Shown piece after piece: positions 34,605 through 56,950 of a stretch of 64,000 bases of DNA (its first letter is position 1; each line of letters opens with the position of its first letter). This DNA comes from Photobacterium sanguinicancri. GTDB lineage: Bacteria > Pseudomonadota > Gammaproteobacteria > Enterobacterales > Vibrionaceae. The notes beneath the pieces were generated by a model, which was not told the DNA's origin, ran no database searches, and was given only the letters and a program-made list of their open reading frames with translations. The translations under genes were made by a program, and so were the position numbers. The stretch lies in contig NZ_NOIF01000005.1 in the NCBI RefSeq assembly GCF_002265265.1, positions 1 through 64,000 of the forward strand. The letters run 5' to 3'.

Positions 34605-34654
34605 TGGTATTTGCATTCATTGTACCGTGCTTTTTTTCTTGTTGATGAGTGTTT

Positions 34655-36553
34655 ATGAGCCTGTCTAGCTTAATGCCTTTTAATTTTTCTTCTGTTTCTA
34701 AAGCTGCGCCTAATGGGGCGAATCCAGCATCTTCAGATACTGAAGGTGGAAGTGATTTTTCCGAAGAATTACAACAAGCTAGTGCGTCGTCGTCACCGTC
34801 AGCATTAAAAAAACAACTAAGTAGTGGTGACGCTGTTTCTGATACTTCTGAACATGCGGTAAAGAGCAGTGGCGAGAAACTGACGTCTGATGATTCAGTC
34901 GAGTCTGCTGAAACCGTAGCTAAGAGTGCCGACCTTGAATTAGGGCAAATTGATGGCGAACTTGCAGCCAAAGATGAGGCTAAAGCCGTCACATCTGTTC
35001 AGCAAGTTATTGATACAGATAGTAATGACGATATTTCTGATGATGTGCTACAAGTTGAGGCAGTTACTTCTGGTCAGGCTGGCAATACCAAAGTTAGTAC
35101 GGTAGAGAATATACCACTAAGCCAAGCAAAGCAGCAGACAATGACAGAAGGGGAAGCCTTTTTAAATCAGATGGATGCAGCGAATAAGCAGTTGTCAGCA
35201 AAAGAGTTAAATACCCCAAATCAGCCTTCAGCAAATGATGTTGATGGCAACTCCTTGCCAGTTGGTACGGCATTAGTTGCTGGCCAATCGCTAGGCGAAG
35301 CTCCTGTTGATGGTGCTATTGATGCCCCAATTAATGGTTCTATTGGTACTTCTGTTGATAGCGCTGAATTGCAAGGCCAAACAGAAGCTGCAGATACAGA
35401 ATCACTAGCGCATGTCTTTAACTCCTCAGCAGTGAATAGTAACGTAACAGCCGCAAATGTGGGTGATGCCTCCGTGACCAGCAGTGAAGCGGAAGCAGTT
35501 GTGAATGGAACGGCTTCAGGGGCGACAGAGGCAAGCCAAGCTGTCGCGGCATCTGGTGCCATTGGTGTTGCTGCGACCAATAATGTAAACGGTGAGCCTG
35601 TTATTACCGACGCGAGTGATACCACAACAGAACAGGTATCAGGAAAAGCGAGCGGTGCTGCGGTGTTAGCGAATGGTACAACAGCGAGTACTCCATCGGC
35701 GGGTACGGCACATATTCCATGGTCTTCCAGTGCAGTTATGGCCCCAAGCACGATGGACGCTGGTGGCGTATCAAGCGCGAACTTAGCGGGTGGTCTTGCT
35801 GTCGGAGTCAGTGCAGGAGTCAGTACTGGTATAGGTATCGGCGCTGAAGCTGTAACGCCAACGGATGGTTCAAGCCAAGAAATGGATCACGCTGCGGCAA
35901 TGTTGGCAGGAGGGGCGATTGTTGCCAATACAGCTGATGGACAACAAGACTCAACAGCAAATATACAAGCAAATGAGTCAGCCGCGGCAATAACGAATAA
36001 CGTGACCGCGGGAAGCCTGACCATGCAGCAAGCAGCAAAAGCGGATGCATTGGCACAAGCTCAAACCCCCATTCAGTTAACCAAAGATCACGGTGGTGAT
36101 GAGTTGGCCGAAAAAGTGAATATCATGCTGTCGAAAAATTTAAAGCATGTTGATATTCGGTTAGACCCGCCAGAGTTGGGTAAAGTACAAATCAAATTAT
36201 CTATGAATCAAGATCAGGCATCGGTTCAATTTACAGCAGCGAATGCACAAACCCGTGAGTTATTGGAGCATTCTATGCCGCGTTTGCGTGAGTTACTTCA
36301 CCAGCAAGGTATGCAGCTAGCACAAACCTCGGTGCAACAAGACACCAGCCGTCAGCAGTCAGGCGGACAAGCTTTCGCTGGTCAGCAAGGCCAACACACC
36401 AATGGGCAAGATGGCTCAAATGGTGGACAGCAGCGTGGCGGCACATCAGGCCAAGGACATGGTCAAGGTGATGGGCATTGGGGTGCGGGTGACGGACAAT
36501 CGCTAGAAATGTATGCAACACCATCAAACGATCGTGTCGATTACTATGCTTAA
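34655..36553 (+). CDS. fliK: FliK, hook-length control protein
   Basis: 632 residues from ATG 34655 (an in-frame GTG at 34649 is possible). Residues 1-470 are low-complexity, rich in Ala, Ser, Thr, Gly and Val, the expected extended molecular ruler. The C-terminal FliK domain (about 475-565) has VDIRLDPPELGKVQIKLSM and LRELLHQQGMQLAQTSV, followed by a Gly/Gln-rich tail. FliK measures the hook and switches FlhB specificity. A second gene with a FliK-like C-domain is at 56093-56950. Confidence 0.94.
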   Translation: MSLSSLMPFNFSSVSKAAPNGANPASSDTEGGSDFSEELQQASASSSPSALKKQLSSGDAVSDTSEHAVKSSGEKLTSDDSVESAETVAKSADLELGQIDGELAAKDEAKAVTSVQQVIDTDSNDDISDDVLQVEAVTSGQAGNTKVSTVENIPLSQAKQQTMTEGEAFLNQMDAANKQLSAKELNTPNQPSANDVDGNSLPVGTALVAGQSLGEAPVDGAIDAPINGSIGTSVDSAELQGQTEAADTESLAHVFNSSAVNSNVTAANVGDASVTSSEAEAVVNGTASGATEASQAVAASGAIGVAATNNVNGEPVITDASDTTTEQVSGKASGAAVLANGTTASTPSAGTAHIPWSSSAVMAPSTMDAGGVSSANLAGGLAVGVSAGVSTGIGIGAEAVTPTDGSSQEMDHAAAMLAGGAIVANTADGQQDSTANIQANESAAAITNNVTAGSLTMQQAAKADALAQAQTPIQLTKDHGGDELAEKVNIMLSKNLKHVDIRLDPPELGKVQIKLSMNQDQASVQFTAANAQTRELLEHSMPRLRELLHQQGMQLAQTSVQQDTSRQQSGGQAFAGQQGQHTNGQDGSNGGQQRGGTSGQGHGQGDGHWGAGDGQSLEMYATPSNDRVDYYA

Positions 36554-40953: not shown

Positions 40954-42084
40954 ATGTCAGATTCTGACGGTCAGGAACGTACCGAAGAGGCCACGCCCCG
41001 AAGGCTTGAGCAGGCGCGAGAAAAAGGTCAAGTACCGCGCTCAAGAGAATTAGCTTCCGTTGCCGTATTAGTGGCAGGTGCTGTATCACTGATGTGGTTT
41101 GGCGAGTCGCTAGCACATGGCTTGATTGCCATTATGACAAAAATGTTCACCCTGTCTCGTGAAGAAATCTTCGATGTCAGTAAATTGTTTGCGATGATCT
41201 TCGTATCTCTCAAGCACATTGCTATGCCGTTGTTTATTGTCTTGGCTTTTTTGTTTGTCTGCGCCTTAATTGGAGCATCTGCATTAGGGGGAGTGAGCTT
41301 TTCTGCGGAAGCGGCGCGTCCCAAGTTATCAAAAATGAGCCCACTGAGCGGCTTCAAGCGAATGTTTGGCCTTCAGAGTTGGGTTGAGCTGATCAAATCG
41401 ATCCTTAAAGTGCTGCTGGTAGCAGGGGTTGCGCTGTATTTGATGTACAGCAGTATTAATGATTTGTTTTTGATTAGTACAGAGTTATTCCCTAATAATT
41501 TCTATCATGCTTTGCAACTCTTAATGGACTTCGTGCTATTGATTTGTTGTTCTTTGCTGGTGGTCGTCGCCATTGATGTGCCTTATCAAATTTGGCAACA
41601 CAACGAACAGCTAAAAATGACGAAACAAGAAATAAAGGATGAATATAAAGACAGTGAAGGTAAACCTGAAGTTAAAGGGCGTATTCGTATGCTTCAGCGG
41701 GAGATGGCTCAGCGTCGAATGATGGCTGACGTGCCTGAAGCTGATGTGGTGATAACAAACCCGGAACACTTCTCGGTGGCATTGCGATATAACACTGAGT
41801 TAGATGGTGCACCTGTGGTCATCGCGAAGGGAACCGATCATTTAGCTCTTAAAATTAGAGAAGTTGCCAATAAGCATAAAATTGATATCGTCCCATCGCC
41901 TCCTTTAGCACGAGCGATTTATCACACCACGGAACTAGAACAACAAATACCGGATGGATTATTTATCGCGGTTGCTCAGGTGCTTGCTTATGTTTATCAG
42001 TTGAAACAGTATCGAAAAGGGCAAGGTAAAAAGCCCGTACTTTCAAAAGAGGCAAATAATATTCCGACTGAACTTCGTTACTAA
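40954..42084 (+). CDS. flhB: FlhB, export specificity switch protein
   Basis: 376 residues: conserved N-terminus (QERTEEATPRRLEQAREKGQVPRS), four membrane segments (about 28-215), the linker DEYKDSEGKPEVKGRIR, and the cytoplasmic C-domain. The autocleavage motif reads NPEH at residues 269-272 (bases 41758-41769), whereas the family norm is NPTH. Cleavage between Asn and Pro lets FliK switch export from hook to filament proteins. The rest of the C-domain (APVVIAKGTDHLALKIREVA, PSPPLARAIYHTTEL) is normal. Confidence 0.96.
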   Translation: MSDSDGQERTEEATPRRLEQAREKGQVPRSRELASVAVLVAGAVSLMWFGESLAHGLIAIMTKMFTLSREEIFDVSKLFAMIFVSLKHIAMPLFIVLAFLFVCALIGASALGGVSFSAEAARPKLSKMSPLSGFKRMFGLQSWVELIKSILKVLLVAGVALYLMYSSINDLFLISTELFPNNFYHALQLLMDFVLLICCSLLVVVAIDVPYQIWQHNEQLKMTKQEIKDEYKDSEGKPEVKGRIRMLQREMAQRRMMADVPEADVVITNPEHFSVALRYNTELDGAPVVIAKGTDHLALKIREVANKHKIDIVPSPPLARAIYHTTELEQQIPDGLFIAVAQVLAYVYQLKQYRKGQGKKPVLSKEANNIPTELRY

Positions 42085-52608: not shown

Positions 52609-53388
52609 GTGTTAGTCTGGAGCATTGCTAACCAAAAAGGTGGTGTTGGTAAAACAACGACAACAGTTGCGCTTGCTGGGTTACTCAGCGAGCGAAATAA
52701 ACGTGTGTTGTTGGTTGATACCGATCCCCATGCGTCGTTGAGCACGTATTTGAACATCGATTCAGATCATGTGCCTGCAAGCTTATTTGATTTGTTTCAG
52801 TTAACGGAGATTACCCGCAACACCGTGATGCCACTGGTGATGCAGACTAATTATCCGGGCATTGATATTATCCCTGCCCATATGTCGCTAGCGACATTAG
52901 ATCGCGTCATGGGTAGCCGTGGTGGTATGGGGTTGGTGCTGAAAAAAGCATTGCGCAGTTTGGTTGATGATTACGACTATGTGCTGATCGATTGTCCACC
53001 GATCCTTGGTGTAATGATGGTCAATGCGTTAGCAGCCAGTGATCGTATTTTGATCCCGGTACAAACCGAATTTCTGGCGATGAAAGGGCTTGAACGCATG
53101 ATGCGTACATTGCATATTATGCAAAAGTCACAGCCTAACGGATTCAGGGTCACAATTGTGCCAACCATGTACGACAAGCGAACGCGTGCTTCTTTGCAAA
53201 CCTTGCAAGAATTAAAGGTGCGTTTCCCTGATCAAGTGTGGGCATCCGCTGTACCAATTGACACTAAGTTTCGTGATGCCAGCATCAAGCATATGCCACC
53301 ATCCTACTTTGCTCGTAGTTGCCGTGGTGTCTTTGCCTATAAAACATTATTAAATTATCTCCTGCGGTTAGAACAAGATGAGCGATAA
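52609..53388 (+). CDS. parC: ParC, ParA-like ATPase positioning chemotaxis arrays
   Basis: 259 residues from GTG. ParA/MinD family: deviant Walker A NQKGGVGKTTTTVALAG (about 8-24), LLVDTDPHASLSTYL, and VLIDCPPILGVMMVNAL. No partner parB or parS site is present, and the neighbours are cheB and parP, which matches the ParC of polar chemotaxis operons, an ATPase that recruits arrays to the cell pole. Its end overlaps parP by 11 bases. Confidence 0.9.
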   Translation: MLVWSIANQKGGVGKTTTTVALAGLLSERNKRVLLVDTDPHASLSTYLNIDSDHVPASLFDLFQLTEITRNTVMPLVMQTNYPGIDIIPAHMSLATLDRVMGSRGGMGLVLKKALRSLVDDYDYVLIDCPPILGVMMVNALAASDRILIPVQTEFLAMKGLERMMRTLHIMQKSQPNGFRVTIVPTMYDKRTRASLQTLQELKVRFPDQVWASAVPIDTKFRDASIKHMPPSYFARSCRGVFAYKTLLNYLLRLEQDER

Positions 53389-54838
53389 AAAACGATTATC
53401 CAGTGAACAAGCACTGGACGATTACTTTTTCGATCTGTTGATTGAGCCAGAAGAAGAGCTTGAAGCAGAAAGCACGATTGAAAGTGAGGCAGATACAAGT
53501 GGGGAGATCGAATCTCAACTAACTGAACTGCCAGCAGATATTGATGTTACGGCAACCGATAGTGATGAATCAGATAATATTGGTGTAAGTGACGATGTTG
53601 TAGATCAACAGCCTGGGTTAGGTGACTGGGAGGTCAAACCGACGGATGATTTATCTGTGTTACCCGCTCAAGTTGATGGTTCACTCACTAATTACGATCA
53701 AAAAAGTGAAGATAATTCGCAAGTGGTCGATAGCTTAGATGACTTTGTCGATGATCTTGCCTTGGAAATGTCGGCAAGTCGAAATGCGGATTATGATTTT
53801 TCAACGATTGAACTGACGCACAGTACGCATGGTAAGATCGCTGAAGATGCACAAGCTAGCAATACACACCACGATGATGGTGAAGTATTGGCGAGTCAAT
53901 CGCTTGCCGATGACTCGACGTCAGTAAATTTAGAAGTGAATGTCGATGGTTTAACACCATCACTTGTTTCATCATTTTCGCTGACACAACACTGTCAGTC
54001 ACAAGCATCTAACTGGGTGCCATCAGTACAGCGTGTAGAAGCCCGTAATTTGGCGTCATTTACGCCAGTCGTCATGGAGCATACTCAACCTGATATGCAA
54101 GGCGTACAACGTCTGCTTGATCAAATGGTGAGTATGCAAACTGCGATTCAACAAGACAGCGATGCCTTGATTGATAATGTGACCGAAGCAGAGTTCCTTG
54201 CAGCAGCGCAAGATGACGTTATGCTTGCAGAGCCAGAGCCAGAGCCAGAAATTATCGAGCAAGTGGAGGAAACCCCTTCAGTTGCGACTGACACTGTTGC
54301 GAACTTAAGTGTTAATAACAATGTAGAATCTCAGCTAGCGACACAAGTTGGCAGTGACATACCACCCGAGAAAACTGCAGAATCGCAGTTAGGTAGTGAG
54401 TTTCAAGCGCTCTTTTTTGAAGCTTGTGGGGTGACATTTGCTGTGTCGTTAACAGAACTGGGCGGTATTCATCAAATGGGTGAGTTAAACCATTTGTTAG
54501 GCCGACCAGAGTGGTATCTTGGCTTATTAACGAGCCGTGAGTTACAGCATGATGTTGTTGATACTGCACGGTGGGTAATGCCAGAAAAGTTAAGCTCTGA
54601 CGAACATAAAGAGAACTATCGCTATATCGTCATGTTGGGTGAAAGTAAGTGGGGGTTAGCATGTGATAAGCTCCACGGTACTGAAACCTTAACAAAACAG
54701 AGTATTCGTTGGCGAGAAAAGGTTGGAAAACGACCTTGGCTTGCTGGAATGGTTAAAGAAAAAATGTGTGCTTTAATTCACGTCGAAGAACTTATCAAAA
54801 TGCTCAATGCAGGGCTTGATGTTAAGGGTATTCAGTGA
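53378..54838 (+). CDS. parP: ParP, CheW-domain protein linking CheA arrays to ParC
   Basis: 486 residues: a short N-terminal segment (LSSEQALDDYFFDLLIEP), a long acidic, low-complexity middle (about 25-340) and a C-terminal CheW-like domain (FQALFFEACGVTFAVSLTELGGIHQMG, to residue 480). In Vibrio ParP binds CheA and ParC and keeps arrays at the pole. The gene lies between parC and cheW as expected. The middle carries an EPEPEPE run from a short tandem repeat near 54228-54250. Confidence 0.88.
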   Translation: MSDKKRLSSEQALDDYFFDLLIEPEEELEAESTIESEADTSGEIESQLTELPADIDVTATDSDESDNIGVSDDVVDQQPGLGDWEVKPTDDLSVLPAQVDGSLTNYDQKSEDNSQVVDSLDDFVDDLALEMSASRNADYDFSTIELTHSTHGKIAEDAQASNTHHDDGEVLASQSLADDSTSVNLEVNVDGLTPSLVSSFSLTQHCQSQASNWVPSVQRVEARNLASFTPVVMEHTQPDMQGVQRLLDQMVSMQTAIQQDSDALIDNVTEAEFLAAAQDDVMLAEPEPEPEIIEQVEETPSVATDTVANLSVNNNVESQLATQVGSDIPPEKTAESQLGSEFQALFFEACGVTFAVSLTELGGIHQMGELNHLLGRPEWYLGLLTSRELQHDVVDTARWVMPEKLSSDEHKENYRYIVMLGESKWGLACDKLHGTETLTKQSIRWREKVGKRPWLAGMVKEKMCALIHVEELIKMLNAGLDVKGIQ

Positions 54839-54860: not shown

Positions 54861-55352
54861 ATGTCGCAGGTGAGTGTAGCCGAAATTCAAAAAGAAGACG
54901 GCGATCAAGTATTACAGTGGGTTACTTTCCAACTGGAAGATGAAACTTACGGTATTAACGTAATGCAGGTACGCGAAGTACTGCGTTACTCTGAAATTGC
55001 ACCTGTACCAGGTGCGCCAGACTACGTGATTGGTATTATCAACCTACGTGGTAATGTTGTAACGGTGATCGATACTCGTTCTCGCTTTGGCTTGATGCCG
55101 GGTGAGATTTCAGACAATACCCGTATCGTTATTATTGAAGCCGAAAAACAAGTGATTGGTATTTTGGTTGATAGCGTTGCAGAAGTTGTTTATTTACGTA
55201 GCTCAGAAATCGACACCACTCCAAGTGTGGGTACTGAAGAAAGCGCTAAGTTCATTCAAGGCGTAAGTAACCGCGACGGTGAGCTGCTGATCCTAGTGGA
55301 TTTAAATAAGCTGCTTAACGATGATGAATGGGACGAGATGGCGTACCTATAA
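54861..55352 (+). CDS. cheW: CheW, receptor-kinase coupling protein
   Basis: 163 residues, one CheW domain: VTFQLEDETYGINVMQVREVLRY, IGIINLRGNVVTVIDTR, then FIQGVSNRDGELLILVDLNKLL. It links CheA to receptors. AAGAGGAAACAG precedes the ATG. Its TAA shares a base with the ATG of the DUF2802 gene. Confidence 0.97.
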   Translation: MSQVSVAEIQKEDGDQVLQWVTFQLEDETYGINVMQVREVLRYSEIAPVPGAPDYVIGIINLRGNVVTVIDTRSRFGLMPGEISDNTRIVIIEAEKQVIGILVDSVAEVVYLRSSEIDTTPSVGTEESAKFIQGVSNRDGELLILVDLNKLLNDDEWDEMAYL

Positions 55353-55783
55353 TGCTTGATTTGGTCATACAATGGTTACCTCTTGGTATCTCGTTGATTG
55401 CGCTTATCTTACTGTTTGTGTTACTTGGCCGTGAGCGAAAAGCCCGTTTAGCCTTAGAAGCTAAATTTTCGGCGATGGAGCTTGTGGCAAAAAATGCACG
55501 TCAGCAACATGAAAGCCTCACTAAACAGTTCAATGAACTGCGTGTAGGTACCATGGGTATGAGCCAAAAAATGGCCGAAATAGCAGATCATCAAGAAATG
55601 TTAGCTGATCGTCAAAGTGAAATATCAATGCAAGATCCTGATGGACGCTTGTATAGCCGAGCCAATAAAATGGTTGAGCTTGGTGCGGATATTAATGAGT
55701 TGATGGAAGAGTGTGATTTGCCAAAAGCAGAAGCTGAATTGCTGATGCGATTACAGCAAATATCACAAACTCGCCGCCGCTAA
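55352..55783 (+). CDS. DUF2802 membrane-anchored coiled-coil protein
   Basis: 143 residues: a short N-terminal membrane segment (about 3-22, LVIQWLPLGISLIALILLFVLL), a coiled-coil (about 25-85) and a C-terminal small helical domain with ANKMVELGADINELMEECDLPKAEAELLMRL, the DUF2802 signature. The function is unknown to me. The start is ATG 55352 overlapping the cheW stop (TAATG); a GTG or ATG upstream at 55328 would lie inside cheW. It closes the chemotaxis operon in Vibrio too, so a role in array placement or in the motor is plausible but unproven. Confidence 0.85.
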   Translation: MLDLVIQWLPLGISLIALILLFVLLGRERKARLALEAKFSAMELVAKNARQQHESLTKQFNELRVGTMGMSQKMAEIADHQEMLADRQSEISMQDPDGRLYSRANKMVELGADINELMEECDLPKAEAELLMRLQQISQTRRR

Positions 55784-55792
55784 GTATTCTAC

Positions 55793-55810
55793 CTGTCGTT
55801 TACACGACAG
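55793..55810. terminator. Hairpin at the convergent ends of the DUF2802 gene and flhX
   Basis: CTGTCGT (55793-55799), loop TTAC, ACGACAG (55804-55810); perfect 7-bp stem whose loop holds the flhX stop codon. No strong T run on either strand, so a modest terminator for two convergent transcripts. Confidence 0.5.
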
Positions 55811-56096
55811 TATCGATGTTTTCAGACCCTTCCCATCCGGGCGGGGTTTTTCCGTTTATGAACCATGAAAATGCAATAAGCTCTGCAATGATGACGTAGA
55901 GTTGCTCTGGAATGGTATCACCGACCTCAAGCTTGTTTAAATACTCCAGCAATACGGGATCTTCGTGAATTAACCCGCCTTGTTGTTTAACTTGCTCAAT
56001 AATATGCTCGGCAAGCTGCTCTGTCCCTTTGCTGGTGACTTGTGGTGCTGTTCGGCCATCATAGTGTAATGCAACAGCATGTTTTGAATAGCTCAT
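55800..56096 (-). CDS. flhX: FlhX, FlhB C-terminal-domain homolog without membrane part
   Basis: 98 residues aligning with the FlhB cytoplasmic domain from just after the NPTH autocleavage site: KHAVALHYDGRTAPQVTSKGTEQLAEHIIEQV parallels HFSVALRYNTELDGAPVVIAKGTDHLALKIREV in FlhB. It has no membrane segments and no cleavage motif, so it resembles a free, already cut FlhB C-domain. FlhX in Salmonella can partly replace the FlhB C-domain. It is downstream of, and overlaps by ATGA, a FliK-like gene. Confidence 0.88.
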   Translation of the reverse strand: MSYSKHAVALHYDGRTAPQVTSKGTEQLAEHIIEQVKQQGGLIHEDPVLLEYLNKLEVGDTIPEQLYVIIAELIAFSWFINGKTPPGWEGSENIDTVV

Positions 56097-56950
56097 ATTT
56101 TGGCGATCAGTCCTGTATACGTCGTATTGTGCTCGCTATCAAACGTTTTGCTTTCTTGTTTGAAACTCATATTTGAAGTGGCTATACCCAGTGATTGCAT
56201 TCGATGAGTGAGGTGAGGGGCTAGCAGCTCTGTACGTTGTAGTAGTTGTGCTGACGTACTACTGAAAAGGAGATGTAGTTGCTGATTCTTCCACACGGCT
56301 TTGGTGATTAACGTTTCACTGCCACCAATGGGAAGCGTGAGGTCAATATGCCAACTTTCTTGTTTCTCATTTTTTTGTGAGCCACTCTTCGCTTTGTCTC
56401 TCCAGACATGTAGTTTAATTTCTTTTCCTTGTGCCTGCGCGAGGTGTAACTGCAATACTGTCGGGATATCACTATCTTGCTGTGCATTAAGCGCTACACG
56501 TTGTTCTGCGGCTAAGCGAAGTAAAGCTTTAAAGTCATTTTGGTCGCTGGGTGAGAGATCGGATAGCCACTGGTAAACCGTACTATTGGGTATAGCTAAT
56601 TGTTGAAGTAGCATTTGAACGGCTGATTGCCCAGCCCCTTGGCGTAACCAAGGAATAAGAGTTGCCTGATTATTCGGCAAAAGAAGCTGAGAGAGTATTT
56701 GCTGAGTAAAGTTTTGTGGCGTAGTCGACGTCGTATTTAACGATGACAAAAGTGCAACAAAACGTTGCAGTGCAGGCAGGTTTGTTAATAAAGTTTGCAG
56801 CCTTTGATGTGGGTTCTGCTCTACCACTTTAGTGTTAACTGATTGACTTGTATCAACAACTTGGCCATTTAATCGCACTTTATCTGTATTGACTTGTCTA
56901 TCGCTAGTTACTATAGCCATTAACGTTTTGTTGATGTGTACGGGGTTCAC
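56093..56950 (-). CDS. FliK-like protein (hook-length-control C-domain homolog)
   Basis: 285 residues from a GTG start with AAGG nine bases upstream. The N-terminal 160 residues are Gln/Leu-rich helical; the last 90 residues resemble the FliK C-domain (WHIDLTLPIGGSETLITKAVWKNQQLHLLFSSTSAQLLQRTELLAPHLTHRMQSLGI). It is shorter than FliK and lacks a long ruler-like low-complexity region. Its stop overlaps the flhX start, so the two are translationally coupled. FliK acts by contacting the FlhB C-domain, so the pairing with an isolated FlhB C-domain is striking. Function is inference. Confidence 0.72.
   Translation of the reverse strand: MNPVHINKTLMAIVTSDRQVNTDKVRLNGQVVDTSQSVNTKVVEQNPHQRLQTLLTNLPALQRFVALLSSLNTTSTTPQNFTQQILSQLLLPNNQATLIPWLRQGAGQSAVQMLLQQLAIPNSTVYQWLSDLSPSDQNDFKALLRLAAEQRVALNAQQDSDIPTVLQLHLAQAQGKEIKLHVWRDKAKSGSQKNEKQESWHIDLTLPIGGSETLITKAVWKNQQLHLLFSSTSAQLLQRTELLAPHLTHRMQSLGIATSNMSFKQESKTFDSEHNTTYTGLIAKI

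Follow-up and report, generated by a model that had tools for sequence, protein, structure and literature searches.

Why would a bacterium that carries full-length fliK and flhB also keep, beside its chemotaxis genes, a two-gene unit encoding a second FliK-like protein and a free-standing piece of FlhB? We addressed this question with a 64,000-nucleotide stretch of a Photobacterium sanguinicancri contig (NZ_NOIF01000005.1), referred to here as the window. The initial annotation had described a fliK-like gene joined through a shared ATGA to flhX, the part of FlhB released by autocleavage (the CC domain), in a genome region that also holds full fliK and flhB. Reading of the open frames confirmed the two small genes and their overlap, as well as the two full genes, and the features are located as follows.

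56093 to 56950, minus strand: FliK-like gene (fliK2), GTG start, 285 amino acids, from the reading of open frames
55800 to 56096, minus strand: flhX, 98 amino acids, a free-standing FlhB CC domain without the membrane part and without the NPTH cleavage site
56150 to 56356, minus strand: putative FliK C-domain within the FliK-like protein (residues 199-267, approximately), with a strands-helix-strand order
56096 to 56116, minus strand: tail at the extreme C-terminus of the FliK-like protein (TGLIAKI), in the place of FliK's [VI]DYYA tail
56093 to 56096, minus strand: ATGA overlap of fliK2 and flhX (gap -4)
40954 to 42084, plus strand: full flhB of the window's flagellar system, 376 amino acids, cleavage site NPEH, presumed docking partner of FlhX
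34649 to 36553, plus strand: canonical fliK, 634 amino acids, C-terminal end VDYYA
55328 to 55783, plus strand: DUF2802 gene, overlapping the end of cheW, last of the chemotaxis genes

The pair had been placed at the end of the chemotaxis operon, and this needs correction. The stop of flhX (55800) lies 17 bases from the stop of the DUF2802 gene (55783); the pair, on the opposite strand, is transcribed convergently with the chemotaxis genes and divergently from ccmA (57059), and it adjoins the operon but lies outside it. The DUF2802 gene stays by cheW and flhX in many families, and it remains where the pair is absent. Also in the window (52609-54838, plus strand) are a ParA-like gene and then a long gene with a CheW domain, whose products we take to be similar to the polar array proteins ParC and ParP of Vibrio. 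The same genome carries a second full flhB (contig C16) and a second fliK (contig C34) away from the window, which points to a second flagellar system; a second stand-alone flhX was not found in this genome.

We observed that FlhX matched PF01312 with 45.2 bits (cut-off 24.4), over the last 74 positions only (261-334 of the 335 in the profile). The FlhX profile retrieved FlhB-CC structures (3b1s, E 4e-14). The best fold match of the AlphaFold2 model (pLDDT 76.8) was Salmonella FlhB (3b0z_B, E 1.2e-4, 2.4 Å), and the 34 top-ranked structures were all cytoplasmic domains of SctU or FlhB. The profile and fold matches established FlhX as the CC part of FlhB, as had been claimed. Its N-terminus falls close to the NPTH/NPEH cleavage site of FlhB, and neither the site itself nor the membrane part was found in the 98 residues. 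Against the TIGR00789 family (flhB_rel), FlhX of the window scores 64.4 bits, under the curated cut-off of 117.35.

In a tree of 104 columns, with FlhB rows taken from this order only and FlhX rows from within the phylum, a branch with 100/99 support, present in 100% of 200 bootstrap trees, split 92 FlhX from 23 FlhB-CC rows. Since the two groups lie on opposite sides of this branch, FlhX is, as judged from sequence, an old separate family and not a recent fragment of flhB. Among 40 FlhX sequences of the order 23 positions were invariant, including H44 and D46, and residues 44-53 read H-x-D-x-x-L-x-x-x-L in place of the [LV]-[ATC]-R of FlhB. The arginine of this FlhB motif, near H44 and D46, was present in 23 of 23 FlhB rows (drawn from L001, L002, L069, L070 and L266-L285; from L068 and L282 an FlhB-CC row that could be used was not obtained). 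FlhX of family f30, taken to be Pseudomonadaceae, carries Y-E-N in place of H-x-D; H44 and D46 are thus not universal. As FlhX is without the FlhB arginine after L-[AT], it may not be an equal substitute for FlhB-CC. P18, A71 and I74 were kept in all 40 FlhX sequences of the order, and by eye these presumably correspond to the early-substrate pocket of FlhB-CC, whose positions we assume.

The FliK-like protein of the window, taken alone, matched PF02120 with 15.6 bits (E 0.014), which is under the cut-off of 29.8. When 37 members of its family from 53 loci were compared, 26, the window's included, matched at E 0.1 or better, the best at 6.2e-13. PF02120 scans of 40 whole genomes gave a match at the gene beside flhX in 10, and in two of these the score exceeded the cut-off (52.0 and 39.8 bits). 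The family profile found the solved FliK C-domain, 2RRL, at E 7e-4, with Importin-4 (E 0.52) as the sole other row, and also picked canonical FliK genes as weak second matches (for example at E 6e-7). With an HMM of canonical FliK, 12 of the 53 upstream ORFs scored above all 741 other ORFs and 41 did not; the window's ORF was only just above the others (6.8 versus 6.0 bits). The PF02120, 2RRL and canonical FliK matches uphold the FliK C-domain of the initial annotation, and indicate that the FliK-like protein ends in a diverged form of it, weak in the single protein and clear at family level. The P-x-E-L-G motif of FliK is lost.

A structural likeness of the C-terminus to the FliK C-domain had also been expected. 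The predicted model was most confident around residues 200-265, where block means of 91 to 96 were followed by one of 84, and had pLDDT below 50 over residues 1-61. Foldseek and VIA-align both placed 5CUK (the PscP switch domain) and 2RRL at the head of the folds matched; 2RRL superposed at 2.3 Å over 68 residues. The scores were modest (Foldseek E 0.036 and 0.078; Z 5.6 against 5.5 and 5.3 for unrelated rows). The predicted fold supports the FliK C-domain assignment without carrying it.

When we examined the extreme C-terminus, canonical FliK ended in [VI]D[YF]YA in 28 of 31 loci (the genome's own two and 29 of the 30 best-scoring PF02120 matches), the exceptions being this genome's second FliK, L187 and L191. 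E. coli FliK ends in GVDIFA. Passages of a Salmonella study propose that the last five residues of FliK act on FlhB-CC (PMC13344023). The FliK-like protein of the window ends in LIAKI and not in [VI]DxxA. Its relatives at the named loci had V, I or A as the last residue in 78 of 78 cases and I or V at -3 in 75 of 78. As the tail in Photobacterium and its neighbours differs from VDxxA, a tail of the Photobacterium type may not act on FlhB-CC. The FliK-like proteins of f30 ended in VDETA in 13 of 13 loci, and among distant relatives 10 of 34 ended in [VIL]DxxZ (Z being A, V, T, S or L), the other 24 differing. We infer that the tail may have moved together with its target, FlhX in place of FlhB-CC.

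How often the two genes occur together had been left to a survey. Profile scores were compared with those of all other ORFs at the loci, with training and test sets that share species and are not fully independent. In 79 of 80 named loci the ORF immediately upstream of flhX was FliK-like (at least 32.2 bits, versus at most 9.5 in 4528 other ORFs). The same was seen in all 53 loci from the order and genus, the window included (at least 24.9 bits; best of 741 others, 8.6), and in all 15 further loci from other families (at least 46.0 bits; next, 3.7). Two loci, L015 and L201, repeat the window. The FlhX alignment A1 covered 33 of the 53 loci and alignment A2 covered 37; A4 and A5 took the window with 48 and 39 of the 80, respectively. 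Among 39 distant loci, hand-picked among the matches listed (mostly one per phylum family, some from this class), 34 had an upstream FliK-like ORF of at least 8.8 bits, versus 7.7 for the best of 1999 others (flhX counted in). It was not found next upstream in the remaining five (L229, L239, L243, L263 and L265). The pairing of the two genes thus extends well beyond the window.

Alishewanella agri (L130) is a true exception, in which flhX follows the DUF2802 gene and the FliK-like gene lies elsewhere without flhX beside it. A second candidate, L134, was rejected, since a longer reading showed an intact FliK-like frame and then several hundred inserted bases. In Rheinheimera, L134 and L124 have a few hundred inserted bases, alike in both, between the FliK-like gene and flhX. 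Intergenic gaps ranged from -14 to +74 nucleotides, with L124 (275) and the larger insert of L134 as outliers. A gap of -4 (ATGA) occurred in 19 of 78 named loci; for the named Photobacterium loci the count was 5 of 30, and for the loci from other families 14 of 15. Adjacency is thus the conserved feature, and the ATGA overlap is present at some loci and not at others. (Gap and tail counts exclude L130 and L134, and length counts exclude L136 as well, which lies at a contig edge.) In many other families, too, the pair lies by cheW and DUF2802, and often by ccmA, if not at every locus read. Long flhX frames at L219, L222 and L254 were considered as natural fusions of the two genes; each had a separate FliK-like ORF next upstream, and a fusion was found at none of the loci read.

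A consensus scan of 200 nucleotides upstream of the FliK-like gene (135 in the window) found no shared flagellar promoter in 27 loci. Three Photobacterium loci (L076, L078 and L083) had a sigma-28-like TAAA-N15-GTCGTTAA, which 3-8% of shuffles reach; such a site is absent from the 135 nucleotides scanned in the window.

We also evaluated whole genomes for the presence of the pair. Both genes were found in 19 of 36 Vibrionaceae genomes, and neither, at family strength, in the other 17, which comprise 5 Photobacterium and 12 of a sister genus (g2, presumably Vibrio). In 16 of the 17 pair-less genomes the DUF2802 gene was located, and in these ccmA comes directly after it, the junction being closed. 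Four near-complete Photobacterium genomes without the pair retain fliK and flhB. FlhA is encoded in 151 of the 197 genomes examined from the order. Stand-alone FlhX, defined by an E-value of at most 1.1e-14 and an open frame of at most 220 amino acids, was found in 60, all within the 151, and in none of the 46 FlhA-less genomes. Since the other 91 FlhA genomes have no stand-alone flhX, the pair is not required for a flagellum as such. The initial annotation had weighed the prospect of homologues spread widely without flhX and without flagella. We saw no FliK-like gene without flhX among the 36 Vibrionaceae genomes, and stand-alone flhX always occurred with flhA in the 197. A scan of the phylum matched at least 334 of 398 genomes, a count that includes FlhB itself. 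E. coli Flk (Fluke, L290) matched 13 of the 197 genomes and none of the 60 with stand-alone FlhX (chance 0.001 if the genomes were independent). As Flk is confined to three family codes, this exclusion may be explained by descent.

Several known systems resemble the pair in part. Helicobacter pylori HP1575 and Campylobacter jejuni Cj0848c are FlhX homologues and, like the window's, are short stand-alone CC domains with a full FlhB elsewhere; HP1575 is said to be a spare part able to stand in for FlhB-CC. In the injectisome pairs SctP-SctU (PscP, 5CUK; PscU, 5CUL) the C-domain of the ruler acts on an autocleaved CC domain, and 5CUK ranks first among the folds matched by the FliK-like model; unlike SctU, FlhX is without a membrane part, and fliK2-flhX has a flagellar setting. 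To FliK (PF02120) the FliK-like protein is related by its C-domain sequence and a conserved extreme C-terminal end, and probably by its predicted fold. It differs in size (285 versus 634 amino acids for the genome's FliK) and in its end (LIAKI versus VDYYA), and its gene is paired with flhX and not in the fli cluster.

FlhX has already been named in print. One phrase in the passages seen of a paper on Nitratiruptor, of another phylum, mentions a unit of flhX and fliK outside the main flagellar cluster (PMC9321776), which we liken to the present pair by description only. Apart from this, no description of the flhX-fliK pair or of its conservation was found in the open literature searched, a scope that most subscription papers lie outside; the conserved pairing with a FliK-like gene is without a description found there. 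Passages on C. jejuni identify its flhX as Cj0848c. In a screen of 321 C. jejuni genes, Cj0849c was one of 42 for which the initial 108 bases led to export of a reporter (PMC2764114). By its number, Cj0849c is next to flhX in C. jejuni. We had taken Pseudomonas PA1466/PA1467 for possible homologues of the pair, and dropped them, as the passages found concern PA14_-numbered genes such as PA14_66580. Bacillus ylqG-ylqH may be a Gram-positive counterpart; the passages found in the open literature searched gave nothing on its function.

What the pair might do is suggested by work on Salmonella. According to passages of Chevance et al. 2026 (PMC13344023), the hook-to-filament switch is accompanied by a loss of FlhB-CC that depends on FliK, FlhB-CC disappears after the switch and is presumed degraded, and export of hook protein is absent without FlhB-CC. 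Given this FliK-dependent loss, a CC-domain gene beside a FliK C-domain gene would fit a second plug and its remover. Our preferred reading, held with moderate confidence, is that fliK2-flhX is an accessory module of the export gate, made up of a replaceable FlhB-CC plug and a dedicated FliK-like partner. FlhX, which starts near the start of autocleaved FlhB-CC and is predicted to keep its fold, would be a pre-cut copy of the plug. We infer that it docks on FlhB, where it would occupy the CC position or compete with the native CC piece, and that there it would hold or restore export of the early, rod/hook type. The C-domain and tail of the FliK-like protein would engage FlhX as FliK engages FlhB-CC, and the protein may escort FlhX, remove it or trip the switch. 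Made from one two-gene unit, plug and remover would stay matched.

The pair could instead be a relic, shrinking in Photobacterium, where the long middle of the FliK-like gene is gone and the rest is being lost. The open frame is indeed short in the genus: among the 30 named Photobacterium loci, 29 have 284-325 amino acids and the other has 468, compared with 310-943 in 47 other named loci (median 692). Both genes are absent in 5 of 24 Photobacterium genomes, one of these 74% complete. Against this, short forms (264-317 amino acids) are also found in a few further families within the order (L028, L029, L064 and L067), and the frames are intact in all 30 named Photobacterium loci. Relative to the nearest sibling genome (G219), dN/dS was 0.18 for the FliK-like gene, the same as for fliK, and 0.025 for flhX, where dS was 1.3, near saturation. 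These values indicate purifying selection, and we consider decay very unlikely. The low dN/dS and an adjacency kept across many families also make the two genes more than chance ORFs. The sizes bear, too, on the initial description of the pair as a miniature copy of the genome's own fliK and flhB, which did not hold, given the 100/99 branch between FlhX and FlhB and partners of up to 943 amino acids elsewhere; "miniature" suits Photobacterium and some others, not the whole FliK-like family.

The far stronger constraint on FlhX than on its partner would also be in keeping with a passive spare, taking the CC position once native FlhB-CC has been lost or degraded, with the FliK-like protein stabilising or escorting it and switching left untouched. 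HP1575, going by the title of Wand et al. 2006, is a precedent. Such a role leaves unexplained why the FliK switch domain is kept in the partner in nearly every lineage examined, and why the two genes are absent together, and we hold it to be unlikely, if still a serious contender. A soluble complex away from the gate, titrating FliK, early export substrates or a regulator of chemotaxis or assembly, would be regulatory and not structural. It would accord with an FlhX that has no membrane part, with a locus that in other families, too, is often found by cheW and DUF2802, and with the invariant P18, A71 and I74 if these do form the early-substrate pocket. Yet both domains are known to work at the gate, and neither protein has a regulator or DNA-binding domain by Pfam or NCBIfam; this explanation seems to us distinctly improbable.

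The gate module that we favour has a more far-reaching form, which we put forward tentatively and think rather unlikely, in which the pair is a reset of the supposedly one-way export switch. New FlhX would fill the CC site emptied by FliK and put the gate back into its early rod/hook mode, so that a flagellum could be completed, mended or built anew; or FlhX may serve in place of the guard given by Fluke in enterics. The FliK-like protein would be the key that takes FlhX off again.

The hook-to-filament switch is a model for irreversible substrate change by secretion machines. FliK and FlhB, to which the proteins of this old, conserved pair correspond, meet when hook growth ends and filament growth starts, and with the pair the cell may control that decision from a separate, second point. 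A widespread pair with a second CC domain and a second FliK C-domain would let many bacteria act on the switch from a second locus, and it makes testable the question of whether the hook-to-filament switch can be held open or reset.
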